This document shows positions 1 through 16,882 of a DNA stretch of 33,207 nt, piece by piece (the stretch's first letter is position 1; each line of letters opens with the position of its first letter). A program made the position numbers and the translations under genes. The stretch is from the NCBI GenBank assembly GCA_028696455.1, contig JAQVGZ010000010.1, forward strand, positions 1 to 33,207. The letters are read 5' to 3'. The stretch is from Desulfotomaculaceae bacterium (GTDB lineage Bacteria; Bacillota; Desulfotomaculia; Desulfotomaculales; Pelotomaculaceae). Under the pieces are notes generated by a model. The model saw only the letters and a list, made by a program, of their open reading frames with translations, searched no databases and had not been told where the DNA came from.

Positions 1-683
1 GTCGGACTTTCTTCAAGTGCTTTTTTCACCTCATAATCCAAGTCATTAACCACTAACTCATTATACTGAGGCTTATCCACCAATATCGGCTTGTCTTCCG
101 GCCACAGTCCTACTAAGAAGTTAAACTTTTGATAGGCGTCATCAAGTGCTTTTTTGTTCGCTTCAAGGGTGGACCTTGCTGTTGTAACCGCTGCTTCTGC
201 TTGAATCATCTCTAATTTACTCAACATGCCGACCCGGTAACTAACTGAAGCGACAATGCGCTGCCATTCTTCATTTTTTAACTGTATTTCTGCCAGCTTT
301 ACATTTTCTATTGCTTGAAGTAGACCATTATACGACTGATAAACCTGCATTATAACACTATCTTCTTCAGCGGCATAAGCTCGTTTAGCCATACGCCAAT
401 TTAAATCCGCCTGCTGCAGTCCGGTGAAGGCCCTTTCTGCCTCTGTCGTTGAGGGCTCCAGAGGGGTATACTTTACTTTATCGGCAGCAGTATCACGTAA
501 TTTAAAGCTTCTATCAATATCATAGTTAGCATTTTTCAGTGCATTGCTATTTGACTTGGCCCTTTCAACAGCTTGTTGAAAAGTTAACTCTGGTGTTTCC
601 GGTTCCCTCGCTAGGGCACTATTTATTGCAATAATAAAATTTACGGCAATACATAGCACCAATAGCATAGCAATCCTGCGCAA
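1..683 (-). CDS. TolC-family (outer membrane efflux protein-like) protein, 3' end cut by window edge
   Basis: About 227 residues are visible and the C-terminal part lies outside the window. After an N-terminal hydrophobic signal (about residues 1-22) comes the typical OEP/TolC opening, ELTFQQAVERAKSNSNALKN. A long heptad-rich helical region follows, including YRVGMLSKLEMIQAEAAV and ending in NFLVGL, the usual helix-turn-helix pattern of TolC repeats. TolC proteins form trans-envelope channels in diderms; homologues in Gram-positive Clostridia have no settled role. The start is taken as TTG at 683 because a GGGGGG ribosome binding site lies 8 bases upstream; an ATG inside that G-run region is in another frame. 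It has its own sigma-A-like promoter and lies downstream of secreted stalk-domain genes. Family call is confident; function in this cell is not known. Confidence 0.82.
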   Translation of the reverse strand, partial: MRRIAMLLVLCIAVNFIIAINSALAREPETPELTFQQAVERAKSNSNALKNANYDIDRSFKLRDTAADKVKYTPLEPSTTEAERAFTGLQQADLNWRMAKRAYAAEEDSVIMQVYQSYNGLLQAIENVKLAEIQLKNEEWQRIVASVSYRVGMLSKLEMIQAEAAVTTARSTLEANKKALDDAYQKFNFLVGLWPEDKPILVDKPQYNELVVNDLDYEVKKALEESP

Positions 684-738
684 AAATAATACCCCCCATC
701 AGATAATTAGTTAGACAACTTAATTATCATCTGCATTT

Positions 739-767
739 AATATATCTTGTATTATTTATTCAGTCAA
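739..767 (-). promoter_or_regulatory. Sigma-A-like promoter for the TolC-family gene
   Basis: On the minus strand TTGACT (762-767) and TATATT (739-744) are separated by 17 bases, each matching the consensus at five of six positions. Transcription would begin near 732, about 50 bases before the TTG start at 683. It lies just past the terminator of the preceding gene, so the TolC-like gene looks independently transcribed. Confidence 0.65.
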
Positions 768-770
768 GGA

Positions 771-804
771 AAAATTTAATCCGGGGGCAGTAACCCGGAT
801 TAAA
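771..804 (-). terminator. Rho-independent terminator after the 447-aa stalk protein gene
   Basis: An 11-bp perfect inverted repeat, TTTAATCCGGG (775-785) and CCCGGATTAAA (794-804), encloses an 8-base loop. On the minus strand the stem is followed by four T residues (771-774). It lies 11 bases past the stop codon of the gene ending at 816. Confidence 0.85.
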
Positions 805-815
805 AATCCCTGTAA

Positions 816-2159
816 TTAATTAATTATAATGGTTTCATTTTCCTCGTTCCAAATAATGTTAGCGCCAAATGCCTGTGCAACCCAGTGCAGCGGCACCATC
901 GTGCGGCCTGGCTCCACAACTTCAGGCTTTGCGTCCATGCTCACGGAGCTCCCATTAATATACATTATATTGCTATTAACAACAAATTTAATAAATCTTG
1001 TACCTTTTATGATTACCACACTTCGGTCGGAAGGATTCCATAAAATATCGTGATCGGGAATATCAAGAGCTCTTGCGATATAGCGAACAGGCAGGTAGGT
1101 AATGCCTCTCTTAATATATGGGGCGGTGTCCATTTTGTATTCCGTACCATTTTGTATAAAATGATCCTTACCAATGATGAAGGCAACGCCAGGCCTGATC
1201 AGGTCGGCTACCTGCAATTTCCCAGCAAAGCCAGCCGTCCCGCCAATTTCAACAATTAAATCACCAGTCATATCCGGTGCAATATACACTTCCATATCTT
1301 TAAGCTGTAAATCTACTGCCGCTTTAGAAGCCCCCGCAAACTTAAATTCCGCTGTTCTCCCGTCGTTACTAATTACCCCGGTCACTTTTAAACCATTGTT
1401 TTCAGCATCGCACAACTTTTCCCACCTGGCTCCTAAGGGTAATTGAAAGGTTATACTCGTGTCATTAATGAACTGACGGGCAGTGTCTTCCGTAATTTTT
1501 ATCGTACCTATCCTCTGCCCCCCGAGACCGGCGTATACACTTCTTACACCCGTACATTCCACACTAACATAAAGATTATCATTATAGGCAAAACCTGAAT
1601 CATCAAAGGCATCAATTGTTATTCCTATATTACCTTCATACCCTGATGCCACAAAAATTCTTTTGGGATAAAGATAGAAGCAACAATCCTGACCAGGTTT
1701 CGGTTCAGCAATTACTTCCATTTTTACTTCTCTTTCATTTAAGCTGGTAAAACTTAAAACTGAGGTACTGTTTTGGAAAAGACCATTTTCTTTGCCGGCA
1801 TATTTACCAGGAACCAAAACATAGTTTTTTGTTCCATACCGGATGCCGTCAGTATCGTATGTAATGCTATTCCATTGCTCGGTGCTCTGTATCCATCTTG
1901 ATGCAGAAGATATGTTGGATTTTACATCCGCTGTAGTCCAAATGAAGCCTTCAGGCAACCTAAATATAACAAAATCATTTTTATGCAGTCTTCCTGCGGT
2001 GAATTTAGCAAAGATACCTCCCAGTTCATTTACAGAATTTCCAGATACGGCTTCGATCGAAACCGGCTCATAAACGGCAGGTTCAGCAAATACCGATGTT
2101 GGTATTATTGTCAGCAACAAAAAGACAACAATCAATACAGGAACATGCATTAACTTCAT
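816..2159 (-). CDS. Secreted stalk-domain (copper amine oxidase N-terminal domain) protein, 447 aa
   Basis: An exported protein with a signal peptide at residues 1-25 (cleavage likely after VFA). Two related beta-rich modules follow, about 28-200 and 200-322; each has an LP-x-G-x-x-W core (FRLPEGFIW, FQLPLGARW), and the second ends in GDLIVEIGGTAG. The last 120 residues hold two tandem stalk domains (PF07833 type) with the markers YLPVRYIARALD and MVPLHWVAQAFG. No amine oxidase catalytic domain is present, so copper chemistry should not be assumed; these domains probably serve in surface display or binding. The ATG start has GGAGG 8 bases upstream. Its modules match the middle of the 733-aa protein nearby. 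No terminator was seen between it and the 301-aa gene upstream, so co-transcription is possible. Confidence 0.85.
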   Translation of the reverse strand: MKLMHVPVLIVVFLLLTIIPTSVFAEPAVYEPVSIEAVSGNSVNELGGIFAKFTAGRLHKNDFVIFRLPEGFIWTTADVKSNISSASRWIQSTEQWNSITYDTDGIRYGTKNYVLVPGKYAGKENGLFQNSTSVLSFTSLNEREVKMEVIAEPKPGQDCCFYLYPKRIFVASGYEGNIGITIDAFDDSGFAYNDNLYVSVECTGVRSVYAGLGGQRIGTIKITEDTARQFINDTSITFQLPLGARWEKLCDAENNGLKVTGVISNDGRTAEFKFAGASKAAVDLQLKDMEVYIAPDMTGDLIVEIGGTAGFAGKLQVADLIRPGVAFIIGKDHFIQNGTEYKMDTAPYIKRGITYLPVRYIARALDIPDHDILWNPSDRSVVIIKGTRFIKFVVNSNIMYINGSSVSMDAKPEVVEPGRTMVPLHWVAQAFGANIIWNEENETIIIN

Positions 2160-2268
2160 AATATTACCTCCATATACAAGCTTTTATACTTTATTTTAAT
2201 TCTATGGAAACATGGATATCCCTGCAATAGTGCTGAATTAATCCATTATATCCTGGCTAATGTATATA

Positions 2269-3174
2269 TTACTGTTTTATTATAATAGATTGGGTAGCAT
2301 CATCCCATACGACATCACAACCCAGAGCCTGTGCCACATAACGAATCGGCACCATAGTTCGCCCCGGCTCCACTAGCTCAGGGACAACATCCATTATAAA
2401 GTTCACACCATTGATATTAATGGTGTGGCTGCCAATGACCATCTTGACCACGCAGTCACCTTTAACCATGGTTACACTTTGGTCAGACTGGTTCCAAATA
2501 ATGTTAGCATCTGCAACACCAGCTGCATAAGCAGTATAACGGACCGGCAGGTATGTGCGGTTTTCCTTCATATAGGGCACCACATCCATGTTATACTCGA
2601 CGCCGTTAACTGTATAATTTGTATCACCAATCCTGAAAATAATTTCACATACTTCATCCTTAGGGGCAGGTATATTTACTTTTCTTCCAGTAGCCTTGCC
2701 GACTACCACTGTACCGTTCACAAACTGACCGTAAAGCTCGGTTACCTTGACTTTCACATCACCGGCAGCACAATCCCTGGCGTCAACTTGAAGAGCAACC
2801 CACCCCCGATAATCATTGCCACTAATTTTAGAAGTAATAACAACCTTATATGTTTTTTCGTCTATTGGAGCTAACATCAGACTGCCTGCATCAGAACGAT
2901 AACTACCATATGTAGCACTAATTATGCTCATTCTTTTGTTATCGGAATCTATGACCTCCAAAAGTGCTCCACTGTTACCTTGAATTGGTTCAATATCAAT
3001 CATGAACATTCCCAGTTGCTGTCTTGCTGAAGCTGATACACCAGGATTGAATGTCTCAGCCGTAATTTGCTCGTAAGTGGTACCCGCGCATGCCAATGCC
3101 GGCACTATTATGCCTGCCAGCATCGACAGGTTAAGCAGGATAGCGATTAACCTAATATGTCCCTTTTTGTCCAC
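2269..3174 (-). CDS. Secreted stalk-domain protein, 301 aa (short paralogue)
   Basis: Signal peptide at residues 1-30, then an N-terminal module (31-165) very close to the start of the 733-aa protein: both begin GTTYEQ, contain an IQG(N/D)S(G/A)AL motif and a DA(R/K)DCA(A/E)GDVKVK motif. After a short linker come two stalk domains (about 180-301; YLPVRYTAYAAG and MVPIRYVAQALG). It lacks the three central LP-x-G modules of the long paralogue, as if that part were deleted. The start is GTG at 3174, with GGGGGG 8 bases before it. A strong terminator lies between it and the 733-aa gene upstream, so it probably has its own promoter, though no good one was found. Function unknown; presumably a wall or surface protein. 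Confidence 0.84.
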   Translation of the reverse strand: MDKKGHIRLIAILLNLSMLAGIIVPALACAGTTYEQITAETFNPGVSASARQQLGMFMIDIEPIQGNSGALLEVIDSDNKRMSIISATYGSYRSDAGSLMLAPIDEKTYKVVITSKISGNDYRGWVALQVDARDCAAGDVKVKVTELYGQFVNGTVVVGKATGRKVNIPAPKDEVCEIIFRIGDTNYTVNGVEYNMDVVPYMKENRTYLPVRYTAYAAGVADANIIWNQSDQSVTMVKGDCVVKMVIGSHTININGVNFIMDVVPELVEPGRTMVPIRYVAQALGCDVVWDDATQSIIIKQ

Positions 3175-3224
3175 TTAATTTCCCCCCATTTAAAAATACC
3201 GCGCCTTCCACAACTTTAGTCACA

Positions 3225-3261
3225 AAAAAGAGACCTGGTCTACAAAACCCGGTCTCTTTTT
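3225..3261 (-). terminator. Rho-independent terminator after the 733-aa stalk protein gene
   Basis: AAAAAGAGACC (3225-3235) and GGTCTCTTTTT (3251-3261) form an 11-bp stem with a 15-base loop. T or A runs lie on both sides, so it could work in both directions. It sits 20 bases past the stop of the 733-aa gene and separates it from the 301-aa gene. Confidence 0.85.
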
Positions 3262-3281
3262 ATTACTATTTAACTAGTTAA

Positions 3282-5483
3282 TTATTTTACAGTTACTGAC
3301 TGAGTTGTAGCATCCCACTCTACTTCACAGCCGAGTGCTTGTGCCACATAACGGATGGGCAGCATAGTGCGGCCTGGATCAACAAGCTCAGGAGCAACAT
3401 CCATAGTAAAGTCTACACCGTTGATGTACATAACTGAACTGCCAATAACCATCTTGACCACGCGGTCTCCCTTTACTAGAATCACACTCTGGTCAGCCTG
3501 GTTCCACATAATGTTGGCATCTACAACACCGGCAGCATAAGCAGCATACCGGATCGGTAGATAAGTGCGATCGCCACTGATGTAGGGTGCTACATCCATG
3601 GTTTTTTCTACGCCGTTAACAGTATATTTGGTATCACCAATCTTGAAGATAGTTTCATAACTGGCATCTGAGGGAGCAGGTGTAACACATTTAGCGTTTA
3701 CTACTCTTGCAGCCCACTCCACTGCCGGGAAAATACCAGTTTCTTTAATTGTGAAGTCACCTGAGTTATCATCATCAATGTCGGGTTTGAAAGGCAGACC
3801 GTCATAATCAGCATCCGAATCATAAAGGTCATCAATTGCATCCGGGTCGTTTACTTCGTTGACAGCAACGCCGCCGATCTTAACTTGTACGTCGCCTTCG
3901 GCAACGGTGCGGTCTACTTTATACTCAATGCCGCTGATTTTGATCTTGCTAGCCTTAGTACTGGTACCCAGTACAGGGATAGTCAGTACATTATCGTCTA
4001 CATCGATATTCTTGTCGTCAATTTCAAGGTCACCTTCCACTACCTCTACATCCGGAGTTACCTGGAAGTCAACGCCAGAGGGGAGCACTACCAGCAAATC
4101 TTTACCATCATTAATAGCTTCCGCTTTGCCTTCAACGATCTCGATGTCTCCGGCAGCCTGGTTTTGCATACCAATCTTCACTTCGGCCACATTAGCAGTT
4201 GCTTTAATAGCTGGCTCGATTGTTGCCACTGTGGCTTCACCCTTCACACCGGCACTGCCGCCAACCACGATATTAAAATCACCGGTTTCGTTTACAGCAA
4301 GGTGAACTTTACCTTTCTTAAACTCAATTTTCCCACCTTCGCTACCGCTGGAACCTTTTTTAACAGTATACTTAAGGATGCGACCGTCGGTTCCAATAGC
4401 TACAGGATCATCTAGAACAATACCTTTAGTTGTTTCAACCTTAGGAACATTATACCATCTGGCATTGGTTGGCAGGGTCAGGGTAATGGTCCTTTTTTCA
4501 AATAAACTGCCGGGAGCACCTTCTTGAACTACAACCGTACCAATTTCTTGTTCAAGCTGACCAGCCACTACTGTCGTGGCATCATCTTCAGTTACTTCAA
4601 CTGTGTATTCCGCATATACGGCAATAGTCAAATCTGCCGGAGCAATATCAGAGTCACCGCTGATACTTACATTCACGTCACCATATTTGGCCTTACTGTC
4701 ATCGACAACGATGTCGGCTGTAATGTCCAATACTGATTTAACAGTACTTGCCTTATCAACATCCAGGAACAGGTAGCGGCTGTTGCTTCCTACGTATGCG
4801 CTACCAAGATCAACATTACCGGATAAAAGACTTACATCCGCATCTCTCCAGCTAAAACCTGACGGCAGAACAATTTTAACGCTTTCGTTGCCAGCTTCAA
4901 ATGCGCCCGCTACTGATTCAGTCAGACGGAAGGTAACACTACCGCCTTCTTCAGTAATAGACGGAACACTGATCACTTCGATAGCTACTTCACCACTGGC
5001 TGCCTTGCCGACTACTACTTCACCGCTCGACAACTGGCCGGAAAGCTTAGTAATCTTTACTTTAACATCGCCTTCAGCACAATCCTTGGCGTCAACTTTA
5101 ATCGTGATTGTCCCCTTATATTCTTCACCATTATTTAAGGATTCCAAAGATACCTTAAATGTTTTATCATCGACTGGTTCAACACTTAAACTTCCAACAC
5201 CTGAAGTATAATTTTCAAAATCCACGTCATTAATTTCAAGCCTGGCATTCTCAGCATCCAGTACTTCTATAAGCGCTGCACTGTCACCTTGAATAGGATC
5301 AATATTGATCATGAATGTTCCCAGTGCTAGATCCGCCGCTCCATCGGAATCAGGGTTGAATCCTTTGGTAGTTACCTGCTCATAAGTGGTTCCCGCAAAT
5401 GCCGCCATCGGCACACACAGGGTTACCAACATTGACAGGGCAACTAAAATAGACAAGAACTTTCTACTTTTCTTGTTCCTCAC
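3282..5483 (-). CDS. Large secreted modular stalk-domain protein, 733 aa
   Basis: Signal peptide 1-30 (cleavage after AFA). Then an N-terminal module (31-165) and three related beta modules at about 168-290, 292-425 and 430-545. Each module has an LP core (VLPSGFSW, TLPTNARW, VLPSGVDF) and ends in a GD-x-x-(V/I)-x-(I/V)-(S/G)-G strand. A very acidic segment at about 546-577 contains DSDADYDG and DIDDDNSGD, resembling calcium-binding loops. Two stalk domains (about 608-733; YLPIRYAAYAAG and MLPIRYVAQALG) close the protein. The GTG start has a near-ideal AGGAGGG 7 bases upstream, suggesting strong expression. It could be an abundant wall or S-layer-associated protein; no SLH or LPXTG anchor is present. 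It combines the module content of the two smaller neighbours. Confidence 0.86.
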   Translation of the reverse strand: MRNKKSRKFLSILVALSMLVTLCVPMAAFAGTTYEQVTTKGFNPDSDGAADLALGTFMINIDPIQGDSAALIEVLDAENARLEINDVDFENYTSGVGSLSVEPVDDKTFKVSLESLNNGEEYKGTITIKVDAKDCAEGDVKVKITKLSGQLSSGEVVVGKAASGEVAIEVISVPSITEEGGSVTFRLTESVAGAFEAGNESVKIVLPSGFSWRDADVSLLSGNVDLGSAYVGSNSRYLFLDVDKASTVKSVLDITADIVVDDSKAKYGDVNVSISGDSDIAPADLTIAVYAEYTVEVTEDDATTVVAGQLEQEIGTVVVQEGAPGSLFEKRTITLTLPTNARWYNVPKVETTKGIVLDDPVAIGTDGRILKYTVKKGSSGSEGGKIEFKKGKVHLAVNETGDFNIVVGGSAGVKGEATVATIEPAIKATANVAEVKIGMQNQAAGDIEIVEGKAEAINDGKDLLVVLPSGVDFQVTPDVEVVEGDLEIDDKNIDVDDNVLTIPVLGTSTKASKIKISGIEYKVDRTVAEGDVQVKIGGVAVNEVNDPDAIDDLYDSDADYDGLPFKPDIDDDNSGDFTIKETGIFPAVEWAARVVNAKCVTPAPSDASYETIFKIGDTKYTVNGVEKTMDVAPYISGDRTYLPIRYAAYAAGVVDANIMWNQADQSVILVKGDRVVKMVIGSSVMYINGVDFTMDVAPELVDPGRTMLPIRYVAQALGCEVEWDATTQSVTVK

Positions 5484-5828
5484 TTATTTCCCTCCTAAAA
5501 ATTTTATTTTCTCTACGAGGCACTGCGGACTTTCCCCATATTAGTACACTCTTTTGAAGCTCCTTCACCCCCCTTTTAATAAGAACCATTGCTGTGAATA
5601 TGCTGAGAATATTGCTACTTAATTTAAGGTACAAAATCCTTTAAAAAATTACCAGTTAGCCAACGAGTTAAGAACATCTATATGGTCAGACAATTCACCG
5701 CCATACAGTCTGTCTTTTCCTCTTTTGCTACCTGATTACTTAGACAACCAGCCCCCTCCAAAAGTTCCATCAACACCAAAAATATTTTTACCAATACACA
5801 CCACCCCTTATAAAATAAGCCGATGCAA
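5484..5828. other. AT-rich intergenic region between divergent genes
   Basis: No convincing gene is visible here. Going leftward it must contain the promoter of the 733-aa gene. The best candidate is TTGTAC and TATTCT with a 17-base spacer near 5600-5630, which is weak. Close to that gene lie its AGGAGGG ribosome binding site (5491-5497) and a further purine-rich stretch near 5560-5580 on the minus strand. No repeats or RNA gene were recognised. Confidence 0.4.
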
Positions 5829-5857
5829 TTGACACCAAAACCCCATAACCTTATAAT
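5829..5857 (+). promoter_or_regulatory. Perfect-consensus sigma-A promoter upstream of the ECF sigma gene
   Basis: TTGACA (5829-5834) and TATAAT (5852-5857) are separated by exactly 17 bases, an exact match to the housekeeping consensus. Transcription should start near 5864, leaving a leader of roughly 155 bases before the likely GTG start at 6020. A strong constitutive promoter is unusual for an ECF sigma factor, which more often drives itself; control may then rest on the anti-sigma factor or on the leader. Confidence 0.8.
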
Positions 5858-5941
5858 TAATAACAGTCATTCAATATTTTCAAACTTTTAATCACAGATC
5901 AAACTTAATAGACCATATAAATTTTTCAATGAGCCTACCGC

Positions 5942-5961
5942 GGCCGGAACTTTATCCGGTC
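5942..5961 (+). promoter_or_regulatory. Hairpin in the leader of the sigma factor mRNA
   Basis: GGCCGGA (5942-5948) pairs with TCCGGTC (5955-5961) across a 6-base loop, with one G-U pair. No T-run follows, so it is not a terminator. It lies about 25 bases upstream of the first ribosome binding site and may affect translation or mRNA stability. Confidence 0.4.
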
Positions 5962-5999
5962 TATCTGTGTCTAACAGGTTAAACGGGAGGTTTTATTGT

Positions 6000-6005
6000 A
6001 TGTAA
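6000..6005 (+). other. Possible start-stop element (ATG-TAA) ahead of the sigma gene
   Basis: ATG is followed at once by TAA. GGGAGG (5985-5990) lies 9 bases upstream, a good initiation context. The TAA overlaps the AAGGAG (6004-6009) that would serve the GTG start at 6020. A ribosome stalled or terminating here would cover that second binding site. It may be coincidence. Confidence 0.3.
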
Positions 6006-6019
6006 GGAGTGGACTTCCC

Positions 6020-6616
6020 GTGGATGATACCAGGTTGCTAGTAAAAAGGGCAAAGGAAAAAGACCTTTCTGCTTTTGAAGAGTTGGTACGCATCCACCAA
6101 AATAGAGTGTACACACTGGGTCTGCATCTTTCTGGCAATCGCGAGGATGCCCAGGACCTAGCGCAGGAAGCGTTTATTAGAGCATACAGAGCGCTTGACA
6201 GTTTTCGAAACGAAGCAGACTTTAGCACCTGGTTGCATCGTATTACAGTAAATGTTTGGCTGAATTTACGGCGTAAGAAAGTGAAACAGCAGATGTCACT
6301 GGATGAACCATACCGGAGTGAGGATGGCAGCGAAATTCAGCATGAGGTAGCCAGTGAAAACGATGACCCTCTCTGGGTGCTGGAGCAAAAAGAGTTAAGG
6401 GATCTGGTCAAGGTAGCGCTTATGAGGCTTTCAGATGAGCACAGAATGGTGCTGGTACTGAGAGAGATAGAAGGGTACAGTTATGATGAAATATCGCGTG
6501 TGTTAGGTTGTACACTTGGTACGGTAAAATCACGACTCAGCAGGGCACGTGAGATAATGAGGCGCAGAATGACAGAACTGGCGCGGGAGAATGGTGAAAA
6601 ACTACCCGTGGACTAG
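6020..6616 (+). CDS. sigW: ECF-type RNA polymerase sigma factor (SigW/RpoE-like)
   Basis: This group of sigma factors directs RNA polymerase to envelope-stress promoters. Region 2 is visible from FEELVRIHQNRVY through NREDAQDLAQEAFIRAY to FSTWLHRITVNVWLN. Region 4 runs from LSDEHRMVLVLREIEGYSY to LGTVKSRLSRAREIMRRRM, with its helix-turn-helix. No other domain is present. The start is uncertain: TTG at 5996 (GGGAGG 5 bases upstream) gives 206 residues, while GTG at 6020 (AAGGAG 10 bases upstream) gives 198 and begins VDDTRLLVKRAKEKD, which is how SigW relatives begin. The GTG is preferred. The next gene, 17 bases on, encodes a zinc-finger anti-sigma factor, the expected partner. The symbol reflects family likeness, not proven orthology. 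Confidence 0.88.
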   Translation: MDDTRLLVKRAKEKDLSAFEELVRIHQNRVYTLGLHLSGNREDAQDLAQEAFIRAYRALDSFRNEADFSTWLHRITVNVWLNLRRKKVKQQMSLDEPYRSEDGSEIQHEVASENDDPLWVLEQKELRDLVKVALMRLSDEHRMVLVLREIEGYSYDEISRVLGCTLGTVKSRLSRAREIMRRRMTELARENGEKLPVD

Positions 6617-6633
6617 GAGAAGGTGACAGCCAA

Positions 6634-7734
6634 ATGGATTGTCGAAAGGCATTATTACTAATATTGCTCCACCAAGACGGGGTTATATCATCAACAGAGC
6701 AAGAAGTACTAAAAGAACATGTGGACAGCTGTATGAGCTGTGCTCAGGAACTGGCGTTGCAGCAACGGCTTTCCAGGGTGCTACAGAAGATGCGACAGGA
6801 AGAACTGCAGGCGCCGCCGGAGTTATGCGGTATGATCATGAATAGAATACGGGCAGAACACAAAAGCGTATTTGCATGGTTGCCGGCCGAATGGCGAAAG
6901 GCGATTGCTGCAGCAGCAGCGATCTTACTATTCGCAGGTGGTGCTGCAGGAGTAAATATGGGATTAAATATCCCGGGCGGAAATGGCAGCAATAATGTAG
7001 CAATTACGACCGAAACTGATTTGCCAAACAAGGCTGACAGTAATGACAAAATCGGACCTGATAGCTCCAACCAAACAACAGGAAGAAACGATGCGCATGA
7101 AGAAACAACAGAAACTGTTATTGGCACTACCAATGGCAATAACATTGATGTGCCGAACGGCATACCCGAAAACAATGAAGCAACAGAAAATAGTGAATCA
7201 GCAGATGTTATTAATCGTTCCATAGCTGCTCACGGTAACAATAACAACAATCCATCTAACTTCGTTGATTTAACATCTCAGGACAGTACCAATGTCCTGT
7301 TAAGTAAACGAATGCAAGTGACCAGTACAATCTTAAAGCTGGCTGTCGACGACCTCACTGATGCTAGAGCCAGGGCGGTATCAATAGCGGCTAGCGCAGA
7401 TGCTTCTACCCAGGTATTTCCTGAGCAGAACGGGAATAAAAAGATTGTAGTATTAAGATTAACTGCGGATTTAGATCGTGCAGAGGATTTGCTGGCAGGT
7501 CTTGCCAGGCTTGGAGAAAAAATTGAGATGCAAGACGAGAGCCGAGACATTACTTCCTTCTATAATAATACAGAATTGCAATACAATGATTTGCTGAGTA
7601 AAATAAATACCAGCACTAATACTGAAGAACGCCGGCAAATGGAGGCGCAGGCTACATCCTACAAACAGCAACTAGAAAATATGAACATGGAGGCAGGTAA
7701 GAGGGTAATAATGTTATGGCTAGAAGGAAGTTAG
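6634..7734 (+). CDS. Membrane-anchored anti-sigma factor with ZAS zinc finger and large outside domain
   Basis: The N-terminal cytoplasmic part has the ZAS / zf-HC2 motif H29-x3-C33-x2-C36 (HVDSCMSC), which binds and holds ECF sigma factors. One membrane helix follows at about 89-108. An Asn/Thr-rich, low-complexity linker covers about 112-215. The C-terminal part (about 222-366) resembles DUF4349 proteins: a compact alpha-beta stretch (TSTILKLAVDDLTDARARAV), then a coiled coil (about 305-355) and a final strand. It would lie outside the membrane, where it could act as a sensor. Release would need regulated proteolysis or a conformational change. The start ATG follows AGGAG overlapping the sigma gene stop, so the pair is one operon. 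Confidence 0.85.
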   Translation: MDCRKALLLILLHQDGVISSTEQEVLKEHVDSCMSCAQELALQQRLSRVLQKMRQEELQAPPELCGMIMNRIRAEHKSVFAWLPAEWRKAIAAAAAILLFAGGAAGVNMGLNIPGGNGSNNVAITTETDLPNKADSNDKIGPDSSNQTTGRNDAHEETTETVIGTTNGNNIDVPNGIPENNEATENSESADVINRSIAAHGNNNNNPSNFVDLTSQDSTNVLLSKRMQVTSTILKLAVDDLTDARARAVSIAASADASTQVFPEQNGNKKIVVLRLTADLDRAEDLLAGLARLGEKIEMQDESRDITSFYNNTELQYNDLLSKINTSTNTEERRQMEAQATSYKQQLENMNMEAGKRVIMLWLEGS

Positions 7735-7767
7735 AAAACGTTGGCTATCTTTACGATTGTTTAAAAT

Positions 7768-7799
7768 GCCAGGCTCAATCAGCCTGGCTATATTTATTT
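7768..7799. terminator. Terminator between convergent genes
   Basis: GCCAGGCT (7768-7775) and AGCCTGGC (7781-7788) form an 8-bp stem with a 5-base loop. On the plus strand a T/A-rich tail (TATATTTATTT) follows, and on the minus strand ATTTTAAA. It can end the sigma/anti-sigma transcript and perhaps that of the protease gene reading towards it. Confidence 0.75.
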
Positions 7800-7850
7800 A
7801 AATAATTTGTTTACTTTAGCTAATTTTATGCATAGGGTCTAAATAATTAT

Positions 7851-10800
7851 TTACCCGGTCAACTGAAAGCAAACAAACATTAACCGCTCCACCAGTATTC
7901 TTACCTCATCTATTGTCACCGGTTCTTCAGGCACAAAACTACCAGGTGGCCGTCCACAGAATAAACCTTTGGCGGTAGTTTTGGCAATAGCTTCGCCAGC
8001 CCAGGGGGGAAAATCCCCTGAATCTGCGTAATATGGTCCCGTTGTTTGTTTACATTCTCCTACCCCCAAATCGCTCAGCACAGCGGCAAACACTACCGCG
8101 GCCTCAGCACGGGTCAGTGTTTTCTGGGGAAGGAAACTGCCGTCTGGATATCCCCTGATCACTCCCCTGGCTACAGCCTCAGCTACAGCCGGATGTAAAG
8201 CCAACGGGATTGCCTCCATGTCGTTGAATGAAAGCAGCGACTCACTGGCGCCTGACCAGTTAAGCAAGCTAGCCAGCGTAACAACTATCTGCAATCGTGT
8301 AATCGGTGCGTCGGTCCAATTAACATCTTCCGCAGGCGTAGTATCCTTTAAGACGTCTGTCATTAATCCGACAACGCTTGTTGACATATCAACACCATCT
8401 CTATCGCTCCAGCCGTTGCCGGCTATCTTTCTGCCTGCCACCCCGCCAGTTTGCCTATTTACTGCAACTAGAATAAAATCAAACATATCGTCGCCGTTCC
8501 CTGCCGGACAACTAAAACCAAACCCGCCATAATTATCTACCGGCACAACTTGTACAGAACTTCCTTTCCACAAGTATACCTCAGCATCATCCCCAGCCCT
8601 CCCGGTCACCCCAAGACGGCCCTGCAGGTTAATAGCAGATGACAAAAACACAGGCGGCGGCGCATTAGAGCGGGCATTTACCGAAAAGAGCACGTATCCA
8701 GTAGGCTGCGGGGCTACTGCATATTCCAACTCAACTTTTTCACCAGGTAACAAAACACCGGGCAATACTGGATAATCGTTTTTATAAACGCTAGTCAATT
8801 CAGAAATGCGGTACTGCCTGCCTTCTGCGGTAGTGATCGTGCCTGTATCTTGATTGTAATCTGTTAAAGTGCTCTTAGTAATAAATGTTTCCGCCAGGTC
8901 CAGCCTCCAGACTTCTTTACCACCGGGGTCGGTTGTAACCCTGATCCTACTCTCTGCAGTAATGGCATCGACCGTAGTCTTAATTCCCCAGCGATAAATA
9001 ACCGCGTCTGGATGTAGATAAAGAGAACAGTAGTGTCCGTTTTCATTAATAAAGTAAAGCATCCTGTCCTTTCTGGTAAAGTCGACAACTTTGCCATACA
9101 AAACGTTGCTATAAGCCACTAATCCGATGGCTTCGCCAGTATCCGTCAGCAATATTGCAGTAACATGGTCGCCTGGCTTTATTTTCTCAAAGCTAGTACT
9201 TTCTCGATCTTTTTTGATCGGCGCACCAGGAAAAAGCCGGTACGTTGTCCCGTTCTCCAACCTGACCTCACCTGTAGATGCAACCGTTTCACGCACCGTA
9301 CCAAGCGCTACCCATCGCTTCACAGCTAGATACTGAACTTCGCCAGTGGAAGGCGCAAGGTGCAGACGAACAGGCATTCCAGGCATGATTTCCTCCAGTT
9401 CATCCAGGGCGCCAGTAGCAAATGGCATGTCCGAAAAACTGGTATCGGTATATCTATCCTCATAAAAGTAAGCCGCTACGGGCGAAACCCTGAATGCTCC
9501 CCCGTTACCAGCAAGGTAAAGTGTTTTTTGCCCGTTCTCGATATGGACAGCCGCAACAACTCCTTCCCGCTCGGAATAGGCAACATGGGCCTGTCTTATT
9601 GTCTGGTTTACTGGGTTAATCACAGCACTAATTTCAATTCCAGCCGGTAGCTCACCTGGTACAGCAGCCTTTCCATTTAATTGCAGGCCGCCTGCCGGGT
9701 CTAGAATGTAACCTCCTGTTCTTGAATTTGGATCAATTTCTGTAAATATCGTACTATCCGCAATATTAAGCGCCTTTACACCAACAGCTCGCCATAAGCG
9801 GGCAGCAACATAAACCTTCTCTGGTGTACGGAAAACCGCCGCCCCGGGGAACAGATGCTCTGCATCTACCGGGGCAATGCTATCATTAATCAGATTGTTC
9901 ACAGACACGTCATTGAGGCCGATGCTTGTGTCGTCAGCCAGCGCAACCTGCGGCCCAGCGACCTCTGCAACCGTATTCTGCGCCGCAGGCTGGCCCCAAA
10001 CCAGAGCGTAATCCTGAGACGGTTCGGCGTTGCCAGCCACCACATTCCGGTGAATGGTCTGACCATAAACCTGCACGGTATAATCTCCGGGAACGGGTGA
10101 GTTCAAGTAGACCTGCTCCACATTATTTATGCGATCCGGTAAATTATTGCCAAGAAAATGATTTCCATAAAAGACCTTCCCGTCAGGGGTCCTGACCATG
10201 AGATTAAGGTCATTGATAAGAGCCTGAGCTCTGCCCGGATCTGCAGGCGGGTCGCTCCAGACAAGAGTGGCTTTAAAAGGCGTGGATGAATCTAACACAT
10301 GAAAGGTATAAGTTGACTCACTGCCCTGGGATATCCCTGCTGCTTCTTCCTTCACCATAAAGATACCTTCTTGCAGAGCAATCACTGTTCCGGCCAAGTC
10401 TATGACCCCGAAACCATCCCGCCCGGAGCCTCCTGACAGGGGGCGGGCCCCGTTGATCAGCACAGCTTTGAGCAACGCGGCTGAAGGGTTAGCTATACTT
10501 GAGTACTCCTTAAAATATTCCCTTAGCAGGGCTATTGAGCCCCCGGCAACAGCTGCTGCCATACTGGTTCCCTGCAAGCACGTGTATTCAGGGTATCCTG
10601 GCAGGTTACCTTTCACTAAGCGCGACCGGGCGGAGATCACCGCAGAAGCTGGCGCCAACAATTCCGGCTTAATCCGCCCGTCCCCGGCCGGGCCGCGGGA
10701 TGAGAATTCGTCAGGCGAACAAGGATCTATCACTCCGGAAACCATTGCAGGCCGCGATAGATTGGAGGCACCTACGACTAGGGCATTTTTAGAGTTGGCT

Positions 10801-11510
10801 TCAGAAGTAATAGAGCCGGCAGAAGGGCCGGCATTACCTGCGCCAAAAACCGGCAAGAAGTCGGGGTGTGTACGCACAAATTCATCTATTTGCGCAGCTG
10901 CTTCCTGGTAAGCATTAGGACCGCCGCCCCAACCGTCCACATGAACACGGGAGCCTGCCGAATAAGCCGGCCAGAACAAGTCCACCAGGTTTTTTGGTGG
11001 CTCCGCCTCGCCGGATTCATTAAGGATAGACTGAAAGTAGATACTTGCTTCTGGCGCCACACCACGGAATTTGCCTTCCGACGCCGCACCTGTCCCCGCA
11101 ACTGTTGCCGCCATGTGGGTGCCGTGCCCGTCAGGATCATCCGGCACGTCCCGCCCGGCCAAGGATCGCAACATTACCACCTTGGGCATCTTTCCCGGGG
11201 AACTCTGCAAGTCAGGGTGCAAGTCATTAATGTTTCCGGCATCTAGCCCGCTGTCAGCAATAGCTACGATTTGGCCGTTACCAGTTAGTCCTTCCGGAAC
11301 AATAAACCCTGACACATTTACTGCTGTAGCACCGGTTATATCCCTGGCGCGATCATTTAGGAAAGATACTGTAGGTGTATAATGGAAAGAAGTGTTTCCT
11401 AGTAACAAGGTTGCAACTATGACTAGAAGGATGACAAACGCACCACAGAATAGTAGCACCCGGCTTTTAGCCAAGTCTTTTTTAAAACAGGATCCATCGA
11501 AGCAATTCAT
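7851..11510 (-). CDS. Membrane-anchored KP-43-like S8 subtilisin protease with C-terminal SLH repeats
   Basis: A serine protease of about 1219 residues. A membrane anchor or signal lies at 18-38. The catalytic triad is Asp86 (IADSG), His129 (DGHGTH) and Ser316 (GTSMAA), with oxyanion Asn226 (GAGNAG). A jelly-roll domain follows (about 415-530: ATLVWSDPPADPG, LINDLNLMV, NNVEQVYLN), as in Bacillus KP-43. No I9 propeptide domain is seen. About 500 residues of unassigned beta-rich sequence come next, then SLH repeats in the last 170 residues (GVIRGYPDGSFLPQ, LTRAEAAVVFAAVL), which tie proteins to wall polymer. The frame extends to TTG 11594, but that codon lies in a terminator hairpin. ATG 11510 is preferred although its GGGGGAG is only 2 bases away; ATG 11546 is an alternative. 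Confidence 0.85.
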   Translation of the reverse strand: MNCFDGSCFKKDLAKSRVLLFCGAFVILLVIVATLLLGNTSFHYTPTVSFLNDRARDITGATAVNVSGFIVPEGLTGNGQIVAIADSGLDAGNINDLHPDLQSSPGKMPKVVMLRSLAGRDVPDDPDGHGTHMAATVAGTGAASEGKFRGVAPEASIYFQSILNESGEAEPPKNLVDLFWPAYSAGSRVHVDGWGGGPNAYQEAAAQIDEFVRTHPDFLPVFGAGNAGPSAGSITSEANSKNALVVGASNLSRPAMVSGVIDPCSPDEFSSRGPAGDGRIKPELLAPASAVISARSRLVKGNLPGYPEYTCLQGTSMAAAVAGGSIALLREYFKEYSSIANPSAALLKAVLINGARPLSGGSGRDGFGVIDLAGTVIALQEGIFMVKEEAAGISQGSESTYTFHVLDSSTPFKATLVWSDPPADPGRAQALINDLNLMVRTPDGKVFYGNHFLGNNLPDRINNVEQVYLNSPVPGDYTVQVYGQTIHRNVVAGNAEPSQDYALVWGQPAAQNTVAEVAGPQVALADDTSIGLNDVSVNNLINDSIAPVDAEHLFPGAAVFRTPEKVYVAARLWRAVGVKALNIADSTIFTEIDPNSRTGGYILDPAGGLQLNGKAAVPGELPAGIEISAVINPVNQTIRQAHVAYSEREGVVAAVHIENGQKTLYLAGNGGAFRVSPVAAYFYEDRYTDTSFSDMPFATGALDELEEIMPGMPVRLHLAPSTGEVQYLAVKRWVALGTVRETVASTGEVRLENGTTYRLFPGAPIKKDRESTSFEKIKPGDHVTAILLTDTGEAIGLVAYSNVLYGKVVDFTRKDRMLYFINENGHYCSLYLHPDAVIYRWGIKTTVDAITAESRIRVTTDPGGKEVWRLDLAETFITKSTLTDYNQDTGTITTAEGRQYRISELTSVYKNDYPVLPGVLLPGEKVELEYAVAPQPTGYVLFSVNARSNAPPPVFLSSAINLQGRLGVTGRAGDDAEVYLWKGSSVQVVPVDNYGGFGFSCPAGNGDDMFDFILVAVNRQTGGVAGRKIAGNGWSDRDGVDMSTSVVGLMTDVLKDTTPAEDVNWTDAPITRLQIVVTLASLLNWSGASESLLSFNDMEAIPLALHPAVAEAVARGVIRGYPDGSFLPQKTLTRAEAAVVFAAVLSDLGVGECKQTTGPYYADSGDFPPWAGEAIAKTTAKGLFCGRPPGSFVPEEPVTIDEVRILVERLMFVCFQLTG

Positions 11511-11592
11511 GACTCCCCCAATAGACAAGAAAAATTTAATAATCATTAAATAAACATTTTCGACAGCATTTAGAAATTTCCTCTTTAAATGC

Positions 11593-11621
11593 AAAAACAG
11601 TTAACCAAATTAACTGTTTTT
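11593..11621 (-). terminator. Rho-independent terminator downstream of spoIIID
   Basis: AAAAACAGTTAA (11593-11604) and TTAACTGTTTTT (11610-11621) form a 12-bp stem with a 5-base loop. It ends in T-runs on either strand. The 170 bases between spoIIID and this hairpin hold no clear gene, only a weak hairpin with six T residues near 11735. Confidence 0.75.
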
Positions 11622-11790
11622 CTTGTATCTTATATCAATATCTTACAGAATCATTTTAAACCAATAAATTCGCGGCGCCTATACCATACGGTATTGCTGT
11701 CCCTTAATCAGCTTGTCCCCTTTCATACCAGAAAAAAGGATTGCTCCTGCGCAAAAAAATTTTGGTTTTCAATAATGACCGACATTTCTG

Positions 11791-12201: not shown

Positions 12202-13167
12202 TTATTTTTCAGAAATTTTAGTTATTTCCACACCACTGTAGTAGTGCCCTAAAATGACCTGGTGTTTATAGCCATGCTCAGCCATGCCCTTCGCTCCATA
12301 CTGGCACAGTCCCACGCCATGTCCGTAGCCGATGGTATTAAATGTTACCCCATTTTCCGTCACCTGCCAGGTAAAATTAGTGGAACGCAGCCCCAGAAGG
12401 TCTCTCACAGCTACTGCAGAAAAATGACTGTCACCGATAATAATACTCTTTGGCCTGCCGGTTTCCGTCTTTTCCTGGACTTTCATTACTGGTAGGGAGT
12501 TAGCTCCGGCAGATACAGCTACGGCCTGAAGGGAGACGCCCATTGCCCGGTCAATTTCCTCAAAGCTGAAGGAGACTGACTGGAGCGGTTCAGGGTCTGC
12601 ATCATAGGGGCAAGATACACTACGGAGATAAGGGACCTTATCCCTCCAGACATCTTCAGAGTTTTCGGTACTGCCGCTACAAGAGGCATGATAAGCAGGG
12701 TCAATTAGCTCACCCTGGTAGGTCAGCACCATTCCAGCCGTGTCGTTAACGGCCTTTTTTACCTTATAATAATAATTATAATAGCTAACTGTCCCCCAGC
12801 GTTTTTTCAGGTCTTGCCTGGATAACCAGGCCTGACCATGACGGTGGTCGTCACATATATCTGCGCCGGGATGTAGTGGATTGGCCACACCACCGGCGCT
12901 CAGCCGCTTGACAACATATGTCCTGGCTGCTATCGCCTGTGCTTTCAAAGCTTCGAGCGGAAACTCGGCGGGCATCTCAGCGGCCACCACCCCGACCAGA
13001 TAATCTTCCAGCTGCATTTGCTGGACATTATTCTCCTGGTGCAGATAAACCCTGACTACCGTCACCCCGGGAACATATTTAGCATATATTTGATTGCTTT
13101 TTATATATGGGAGTCCCAGGACCAGCGCGGTTGCCAGAAGTGAAACGCCAATTACCAACCTGCGCAA
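12202..13167 (-). CDS. spoIID: Stage II sporulation protein D (SpoIID), peptidoglycan lytic transglycosylase
   Basis: SpoIID is a membrane-bound enzyme of the mother cell that cuts glycan strands during engulfment of the forespore, in the DMP complex with SpoIIP and SpoIIM. The N-terminus has one membrane helix. The hallmark LEDYLVGVVAAEMPAEFP contains the catalytic Glu (about residue 64), followed by KAQAIAARTYV. Cys and His residues of the family core are present (ASCSGSTENSEDVW, VSCPYD), and the C-terminal signature GYGHGVGLCQYGAKGMA is complete. The longest frame begins at GTG 13176, but the AAGAAGG binding site overlaps that codon; TTG 13167, 8 bases downstream of it, is preferred (321 aa). 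It follows ywmB by 16 bases and is probably co-transcribed with it. Confidence 0.95.
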   Translation of the reverse strand: MRRLVIGVSLLATALVLGLPYIKSNQIYAKYVPGVTVVRVYLHQENNVQQMQLEDYLVGVVAAEMPAEFPLEALKAQAIAARTYVVKRLSAGGVANPLHPGADICDDHRHGQAWLSRQDLKKRWGTVSYYNYYYKVKKAVNDTAGMVLTYQGELIDPAYHASCSGSTENSEDVWRDKVPYLRSVSCPYDADPEPLQSVSFSFEEIDRAMGVSLQAVAVSAGANSLPVMKVQEKTETGRPKSIIIGDSHFSAVAVRDLLGLRSTNFTWQVTENGVTFNTIGYGHGVGLCQYGAKGMAEHGYKHQVILGHYYSGVEITKISEK

Positions 13168-13183
13168 AGATAACACCTTCTTT

Positions 13184-13960
13184 CTAATACTCGGTTAGGA
13201 TAATTGGGGACGCAACATAAACGCTGGTTGCGTGATCCGCCGTACTGCGTCGCAAAGCCACATTAAGGTTTATATCTTTCCCGGCATAACGCATATAGCC
13301 AGGAAGCCGTGCGCTGTAACCGGTCAGACTGACCAGGTTTTCCTTTGTTGTCCTTTCCTGTATAGCCGCACCGGCGCTGCTCATCATATCTTCAGCACAA
13401 GCTGTTAGTTCCATATCGCCAAGCACTGTGTTTATTCTTCCAGATAAAGTTACGGCCACGTGAAAATCCTCGCCGCATTGCTTAAGTGCCTTGCCCACTC
13501 GCTTTCTGTAAATTCCTGTCTTACTATAATCAGCCCCTGCCACATTGACCATTACATGGGAAATCTTTTCACCTTGCGGCAGGACCATTACCTGACCCAC
13601 TATGGTAACCGGACTGCCGTCAGACAACTCACCCTGAATCTTTGAACCACAAGCGTAAGCATTCTGCCAGTTTTCCGCTTTAAGTACTATCCCTTTTAAC
13701 CCCAGTGGTTCAGCAACCATGCTAGCTATTTCCACCGAATCTCCCACACCGGGCATATTCCCGTCAACTTTTACCAAGCCCGTGATATAGGTTGAGCTTA
13801 GCTCAGCCCCCGAAGACTTAATTAAATTCATTAAGACATCTTCTTCTCTGCTTTTATCGAGCGATTTATTGCTCGTAAGCACCAGGAGCATAACAGCAAA
13901 AATTAGGATAATAGGCAACCACATTAAAAAGAGCTGTTTTCTTTGACCGATACCGGGCAT
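13184..13960 (-). CDS. ywmB: YwmB-family protein (DUF1779), membrane-anchored
   Basis: The family is conserved in spore formers and has no firmly known biochemical role. In Bacillus subtilis ywmB lies just before murAA and spoIID. The protein here (258 aa) has one N-terminal membrane helix (about residues 10-28) and an outside domain. It ends in the family-typical strand SVYVASPIILTEY; the Bacillus protein ends similarly in TEY. Another family feature is a single mid-protein LSGRIN segment. The frame extends to GTG 13969, but AGGTGG sits 5 bases before ATG 13960, which is preferred. It lies beyond the ATP synthase terminator, so it must have its own promoter; none was convincing in the 80 bases available. 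Confidence 0.82.
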   Translation of the reverse strand: MPGIGQRKQLFLMWLPIILIFAVMLLVLTSNKSLDKSREEDVLMNLIKSSGAELSSTYITGLVKVDGNMPGVGDSVEIASMVAEPLGLKGIVLKAENWQNAYACGSKIQGELSDGSPVTIVGQVMVLPQGEKISHVMVNVAGADYSKTGIYRKRVGKALKQCGEDFHVAVTLSGRINTVLGDMELTACAEDMMSSAGAAIQERTTKENLVSLTGYSARLPGYMRYAGKDINLNVALRRSTADHATSVYVASPIILTEY

Positions 13961-14027
13961 TATTTCCACCTAAAATAGTATATGATATTACATCTACTAT
14001 TCTTACCATATATTAACTTATAAATAC

Positions 14028-14057
14028 AAAAAAAAGAGTTCTGTCCAAAGACAGAAC
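14028..14057 (-). terminator. Strong terminator of the ATP synthase operon
   Basis: On the minus strand GTTCTGTC and GACAGAAC (14038-14045 / 14050-14057) pair in an 8-bp stem with a 4-base loop, followed by TCTTTTTTTT. It lies 20 bases past the atpC stop codon. Confidence 0.92.
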
Positions 14058-14076
14058 CCATATGATATACTATTTT

Positions 14077-14478
14077 TTACTGAACTGCGTTTAACCGGTT
14101 GAGCGCTCGCCTCAGAGCCAGTTCAGCCCTTAAGACATCCAGATCAGGCGCTTTTTCAGCCAGCCTCTGCTCAGCGCGCATCTTCGCAGCCTCAGCACGC
14201 GCAACGTCAATTTCATCAAGCCTCTCCACAGCGGTAGCCAAAATAGTTATTTTACTGTCCCTGACCTCCATAAAGCCACCGCTCACTGTCATAATAATCC
14301 GATTTTCATCATGATCGAATTTGAGCAATCCAATCTTCAGAGGGGTAATCAGTGCTGCGTGCTCAGGCAGTATACCAAGCTCACCTTCAGCCCCGGGGGC
14401 GATTAAATATCTTATATTATCGCTGAAGACTTTTTTCTCTGGTGTAACTATTTCTAGTCGCTGGGTCTTATCCGACAT
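14077..14478 (-). CDS. atpC: F1Fo ATP synthase epsilon subunit (AtpC)
   Basis: Epsilon is the central-stalk subunit that links gamma to the c-ring and restrains ATP hydrolysis. The 133 residues match the family length. The N-terminal beta-sandwich has LEIVTPEKKVFSD and APGAEGELGILPEHAAL. The two C-terminal helices run from ARAEAAKMRAEQRLAE to ALRRALNRLNAVQ. The frame could begin at 14511, but ATG 14478 (MSDKTQRLEIV) fits the family, with AAAGG about 11 bases upstream. It is the last gene of the operon, about 114 bases after atpD, and is followed by the operon terminator. Confidence 0.96.
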   Translation of the reverse strand: MSDKTQRLEIVTPEKKVFSDNIRYLIAPGAEGELGILPEHAALITPLKIGLLKFDHDENRIIMTVSGGFMEVRDSKITILATAVERLDEIDVARAEAAKMRAEQRLAEKAPDLDVLRAELALRRALNRLNAVQ

Positions 14479-14592
14479 ACAATCCACTGCCTTTCTATAT
14501 GTATCACACATATATATTTCTGCGTGTTAGCGCAGGGTCCAGAGCCCCCTTTGCGGAGGCCCTGGCCGGGCAAGTACCTGCTGACTAGTTTA

Positions 14593-16882
<2,290 letters not shown>

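Follow-up and report, generated by a model that had tools for sequence, protein, structure and literature searches.

A sigma factor/anti-sigma factor locus predicted to control its own operon and a probable S-layer protein gene in Desulfotomaculaceae and related spore-formers

ECF sigma/anti-sigma factor pairs and S-layers are each of a known kind. The closest described regulators, RpoE-RseA (ECF02) of E. coli and SigW-RsiW of B. subtilis, resemble the pair analyzed here in combining a membrane anti-sigma factor with autoregulation and an available site-2 protease. The anti-sigma factor here is of the zinc type, as is RsiW, and the predicted promoters carry GGAACTT, the -35 element of E. coli RpoE (PMC8103513). 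However, the RpoE and SigW regulons comprise tens of genes, whereas the promoter motif of the present locus is found essentially at two operons, those of the sigma factor and of one surface protein; in addition, the outside domain of our anti-sigma factor is DUF4349-like, and PrsW, which acts at site 1 for RsiW, is absent from the genome. FecI-FecR-FecA is alike in that the sigma/anti-sigma pair adjoins the surface component under its control, but here there is neither a TonB receptor nor an outer membrane, and the surface component would be a structural layer protein.

Two further comparisons concern the surface proteins themselves. Swol_0133 of Syntrophomonas wolfei is the most abundant protein of the membrane fraction and a predicted S-layer protein of 78,098 Da (PMC3582634). 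Like the surface protein of our locus (StalkC), this very abundant protein is of ~78 kDa and has a C-terminal PF07833 domain as its sole domain, and the same lineage has StalkC beside the sigma pair; no regulator has been described for Swol_0133, and the likeness is one of these features rather than of compared sequences. TolC, OprM, and CusC share with the TolC-like protein of the locus a two-repeat long-helix fold, and its best PDB matches all belong to this family, but the protein here has a mature chain of ~340 aa, shows no barrel in its model, and occurs in hosts without Omp85 or an outer membrane. In the literature available without subscription, no ECF sigma factor was found that serves an S-layer gene alone, nor any TolC family of monoderms that lacks the barrel.

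The window, i.e., the whole stretch of DNA analyzed (33,207 nucleotides), makes up the initial 33 kb of a 51-kb contig in a draft genome of 2.7 Mb; its features are collected in Table 1. A preliminary description had read an ECF sigma factor, an anti-sigma factor, stalk proteins, a TolC-like protein, and an SLH protease in the first 11.5 kb, and all of these were found in their places, except that the start given for the protease, 11510, is an internal ATG of a longer ORF. The word "stalk" is merely the name of the PF07833 domain. Because the window begins at base 1 of the contig, the TolC-like gene is truncated by the contig end. Beyond the protease lie spoIIID, spoIID, and then the ATP synthase operon; mbl, which in most relatives is found between the protease and spoIIID, is missing here (window positions 11595-11790), as it is in the two genomes placed in the same genus.

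Table 1. Features of the locus, in window coordinates.
Feature	Position	Strand	Evidence
TolC-like gene, N-terminal 227 aa	3..683	-	PF02321, 38.1 bits
Predicted sigma-A-type promoter of TolC-like gene, TTGACT-N17-TATATT	739..767	-	consensus match; equivalents in relatives
Predicted intrinsic terminator 3' of stalkA	775..804	-	11 pairs and T tail; consensus match only
stalkA, exported, C-terminal PF07833	816..2159	-	Pfam; similarity to StalkC end
stalkB, exported, PF07833, short version of StalkC	2269..3174	-	Pfam; similarity to StalkC
StalkC, 733 aa, signal peptide, C-terminal PF07833	3282..5483	-	Pfam, model
StalkC leader, ~256 nt between ECF -10 element and StalkC start	5484..5739	-	
Predicted ECF promoter of StalkC, GGAACTTTTGGAGGGGGCTGGTTGTCTAA	5740..5768	-	motif scan
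Perfect sigma-A consensus 5' of sigma gene, TTGACA-N17-TATAAT	5829..5857	+	consensus match
Predicted ECF promoter of sigma/anti-sigma operon, autoregulatory, GGAACTTTATCCGGTCTATCTGTGTCTAA	5946..5974	+	motif scan
ECF sigma factor (SIG)	5996..6616	+	Pfam Sigma70_r2 and r4_2; NCBIfam sigma70-ECF above cut-off
Membrane anti-sigma factor (RSI)	6634..7734	+	zinc-binding motif, TM segment, linker, DUF4349-like outside domain
Likely terminator (inverted repeat) where the anti-sigma and protease genes converge	7768..7788	n/a	
Subtilase (S8) with C-terminal SLH domains	7851..11594	-	Pfam, catalytic motifs

SIG is a protein of 206 aa with PF04542 and PF08281 domains, and its score of 107.4 bits against TIGR02937 (cut-off 42.9) places it among the ECF sigma factors. 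Its best NCBIfam matches are SigW (152.9, cut-off 209) and RpoE (140.6, cut-off 236); both fall below the curated cut-offs, and SIG was therefore rejected as an equivalog of either, being judged to work like SigW/RpoE without being classed as one. The anti-sigma factor has HxxxCxxC at residues 29-36 (H29-C33-C36), one TM segment at ~91-109, and a gene adjoining that of its sigma factor, all of which are features of class I zinc-binding anti-sigma factors; zf-HC2 was found in 37/42 of its orthologs. The TM segment is followed by a low-complexity linker of ~108 residues, 72% of which are N, S, T, P, G, D, E, or Q, and by a C-terminus that can only be called DUF4349-like in the window protein (15.7 bits, against a PF14257 gathering threshold of 27.7), with PF14257 matches in 36/42 orthologs at E values up to 0.05 (best 1.8e-10). 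The same genome encodes an M50 site-2-type protease. In the draft genome of Pelotomaculum sp. PtaB.Bin104 (8% contamination), the sigma gene and block occur in as many as eight divergent versions, on contigs C13, C15, C25, C55, C123, C142, C145, and C244; these are true paralogs or else reflect a mixture of strains.

StalkC is a predicted exported protein with a signal peptide, a pI of 4.2, three Cys residues, and no SLH domain. Its model is a row of Ig-like beta-sandwiches with the PF07833 domain at the end, for which Foldseek returned generic Ig-domain matches only. The codon adaptation of StalkC (0.789) was the highest of the 21 window genes compared, using a reference set that included the ATP synthase genes and excluded StalkC itself. 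The end of StalkC is 46% identical to stalkA over 120 aa, and stalkB corresponds to the StalkC N-terminal domain plus the PF07833 domain (45% over 190 aa and 58% over 183 aa). The StalkC adjoining the sigma pair of S. wolfei subsp. methylbutyratica has a mass of 77,701 Da, but a second StalkC-like protein of 759 aa is encoded nearby, so that Swol_0133 could be either; by size, domain, and lineage rather than by sequence, Swol_0133 is likely a StalkC ortholog. The Desulfotomaculum reducens surfaceome contains an OEP protein, Dred_3141, and a PF07833 protein, Dred_3143 (PMC4137172), which, going by their gene numbers, would belong to this block. StalkC is thus probably an S-layer subunit, its abundance being known from a relative only (PMC3582634). 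The 256-nt StalkC leader was also considered as a structured RNA, an idea that was rejected because Rfam gave no match and the RNAalifold covariation term was unfavourable; the leader is partly conserved in the family, with AGCAGCAA-type words and a hairpin-like GCCTGCC/GGCAGG.

The sequences upstream of 59 sigma and 34 StalkC genes were searched for dyads by counting spaced word pairs, with no prior pattern. Both sets yielded the same dyad, GGAAC...GTCTA, present in 50/59 sigma and 29/34 StalkC upstreams as compared with at most six in shuffled sequence, and the full motif reads GGAACTTTT-N13-TGTCTAA. Weight matrix scores above 12 were obtained for 53/59 sigma and 29/34 StalkC upstreams, and for 0/72 protease upstreams, 0/31 TolC-like upstreams, and no shuffled upstreams; because the sigma and StalkC sites served to build the matrix, their counts are a measure of fit, whereas the zeros at the other genes are informative. 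Nor does the motif lie directly upstream of stalkA (2159) or stalkB (3174) in the window. For lack of the motif, the protease and TolC-like genes were rejected as targets of ECF control, as were stalkA and stalkB as direct targets. With a -35 element equal to that of E. coli RpoE, the predicted promoters of both the sigma gene and its target have RpoE-type specificity as judged by sequence. Where StalkC has moved away from the sigma gene, the motif has moved along with it. Because the motif occurs at the sigma and StalkC genes, never at the protease or TolC-like gene, and travels with StalkC, the sigma pair most likely controls its own operon and one surface protein.

Other promoters were predicted around these. 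The perfect (12/12) sigma-A consensus upstream of the sigma gene, which was seen in three loci only, is a possible basal promoter. A sigma-A-type promoter precedes the TolC-like gene in 24/31 loci, where 1.3 would be expected, and together with the terminator 3' of stalkA it sets the TolC-like gene of the window apart from the stalk genes; the gene is accordingly predicted to be expressed separately, from a housekeeping-type promoter of its own. A TGTCTAA at 716-710 (-), followed by CTAATTATCTGATGG, also lies upstream of the TolC-like gene. Although it looks like the StalkC promoter around its -10 element, no -35 element accompanies it, and it was taken to be chance or a relic.

Sixty related genomes were searched with the anti-sigma factor, protease, and sigma factor, and orthologs of the three were found to adjoin one another. 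The order common to most families of the order is TolC-like gene, stalk genes, StalkC, divergent sigma and anti-sigma genes, and convergent protease. Three families (seven genomes) had no anti-sigma factor, no full-length protease, and no exact motif, i.e., the whole module is absent. When 84,980 species genomes were scanned with the middle region of the protease, 80 named loci were obtained, in Pelotomaculum, Desulfotomaculum and allies, Moorella, Heliobacterium, Heliorestis, Syntrophomonas, Ammonifex, and others. An anti-sigma gene lies near the protease in 61 of the 62 loci long enough to tell, and in 55 of those 61 the two are tail-to-tail, with a median gap of 196 bp. StalkC was found in 34/50 loci, with none within reach in the other 16, and a TolC-like gene in 30/49. 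The preliminary description had named non-conservation of the neighbors as grounds for abandoning its proposal; the block is in fact conserved, and co-location, once its sole evidence, has now been joined by a promoter motif with no equivalent matches in shuffled sequence. Of the four places where a shared ECF promoter had been suggested, only that upstream of 5483 proved to have one (as does the sigma gene). The idea of a system acting at the surface survives, but since the motif is confined to 5483 and the sigma gene, and the TolC-like gene has its own promoter, the block is not the single co-regulated "remodelling" regulon that had been envisaged.

The catalytic motifs of the subtilase are intact (D114-S-G, G-H-G-T-H 156-160, and G-T-S-M-A 342-346), and with its Asp-His-Ser triad and SLH domains it is an SLH-anchored S8 protease. 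On promoter evidence it appears to be a conserved but separately expressed neighbor of the ECF regulon, with a candidate role in anti-sigma cleavage or surface processing. Some Pelotomaculum loci have two extra genes between the protease and the anti-sigma gene, encoding a PQQ-type beta-propeller protein and an SLH-domain protein (12592-13752 and 13712-15220 in locus L115). That the subtilase serves in maturation or turnover of the surface protein, or in the general degradation of wall proteins, and has no part in signalling, is a possibility to which we give some credence, though short of favoring it: its SLH domains anchor it to the wall and separate expression suits housekeeping maintenance, but a dedicated maturation protease should share the promoter of the surface protein, which no protease gene does, and the loci that lack StalkC within reach nevertheless keep the protease with the sigma pair. 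Alternatively, the subtilase could be the site-1 protease, cutting the exposed anti-sigma linker if the surface layer is absent or damaged and so starting intramembrane proteolysis. Its conservation with the anti-sigma gene while lying outside the regulon fits such an upstream role, as do the tail-to-tail arrangement, the long cleavable linker, and the presence of the M50 protease without PrsW; furthermore, among good-quality genomes, 35 have both the anti-sigma factor and the protease, eight have neither, two have the protease alone (in both cases at a contig end), and one has the anti-sigma factor alone. Against this, signal peptidase acts at site 1 in other sigma pairs (RsiP; PMC8844934), and in one genome the protease and sigma pair are on different contigs; the assignment is therefore a tentative one.

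The extent of the regulon bears on whether SIG is instead a general envelope-stress sigma factor of the SigW/RpoE kind, whose broad regulon would include the surface protein as just one member. The best NCBIfam matches of SIG and its -35 element (PMC8103513) would suit such a role. In a genome-wide pattern search, however, the exact motif occurred only twice in the genome of the window, at the two sites of Table 1, which share one intergenic region; allowing two mismatches gave 13 sites against five for the control, and there may thus be weak additional SIG targets. The 60 relatives contain 83 exact sites, against one for the reversed pattern, typically one to three per genome and mostly at sigma and StalkC genes. 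Twenty regions around off-locus sites were read among the relatives, and sites preceding StalkC paralogs or homologs were found in ten genomes (two such sites in one of them). Across the wider phylum the motif is present in 52/398 genomes, and of 42 sites in 40 stretches, 18 precede a stalk protein, seven a sigma gene, 12 another gene, and five none; in one of these genomes the StalkC site is 550 kb from the other site. Some of these sites precede an SLH-type protein or no recognized gene, and in two genomes of one other family the exact motif precedes a 158-aa protein, which is a possible extra regulon member. These sites count in favor of a broader stress role, and because of them the regulon is best called narrow rather than strictly single-gene, but with so few sites per genome a general stress sigma factor is improbable. 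Mere conserved chromosome order was rejected as highly improbable because, although the Desulfotomaculales block does adjoin mbl-spoIIID-spoIID-atp, the sigma pair is kept without spoIIID in 23 of 54 testable loci (including Moorella, heliobacteria, and Syntrophomonas), the module thus persisting without the spoIIID/atp flanks, and the promoter follows StalkC when the latter has moved.

Full-length relatives of the TolC-like protein are ~360-400 aa long. For the Pelotomaculum propionicicum protein, AlphaFold2 gave an all-helical model (pLDDT 90.1) without strands of three or more residues, and Foldseek of a full-length relative gave TolC and other outer membrane factors as the best PDB matches (E 1.4e-11, TMq 0.77). 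The helical OEP fold is therefore indicated both by PF02321, above cut-off in the window gene, and by structure in a relative, whereas the transmembrane beta-barrel and outer membrane that go with TolC are not: the model has no strands, and Omp85 was found in 0/59 relatives, which by that test makes the hosts monoderm. A strong Omp85 match (231 bits) does occur in the genome of the window, outside the window itself (contig C2, 2346-3287), but this contig is probably a contaminant of the draft genome, and an outer membrane in the hosts was rejected. The protein is predicted, from the model of this relative, to be a TolC relative that has lost the barrel and kept the helical part.

We have good confidence in reading the block as a dedicated S-layer control unit, in which SIG drives itself and the StalkC surface-protein gene; what supports this at the level of sequence is the pair of predicted promoters, their conservation, and their near-exclusivity. 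The RpoE-like SIG would be held by the membrane anti-sigma factor, whose outside part, linker plus DUF4349-like domain, would be long enough to cross the wall. Release would proceed by stepwise proteolysis of the anti-sigma factor, perhaps on a signal that reports the condition of the wall or S-layer; the SLH-anchored subtilase is a candidate for the first-step protease or for a surface processor. Once released, SIG would transcribe its own operon, giving positive feedback, and also StalkC, with stalkB and stalkA then probably transcribed by read-through from 5483. The barrel-less TolC-like protein would be a constitutively expressed surface or wall component of the same layer. Taken to its full extent, this would make the locus a self-contained S-layer homeostat of monoderms: the wall-crossing anti-sigma factor senses the layer, the subtilase begins the destruction of the anti-sigma factor if the layer is missing, and SIG then remakes the layer protein and little else, with the barrel-less TolC tube as a standing part of the envelope. 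In this complete form we regard the scheme as speculative and doubtful.

Little is understood of the way in which bacteria maintain a complete S-layer. The predicted motif, two promoters, and one target span several orders of anaerobic spore-formers involved in methane, acetogenesis, and sulfur cycling, and a regulon of so small a size could be tested by a single deletion. The locus also shows that TolC-family proteins occur where an outer membrane is lacking, and it would give a likely function to the protein that dominates the surface of a syntroph.
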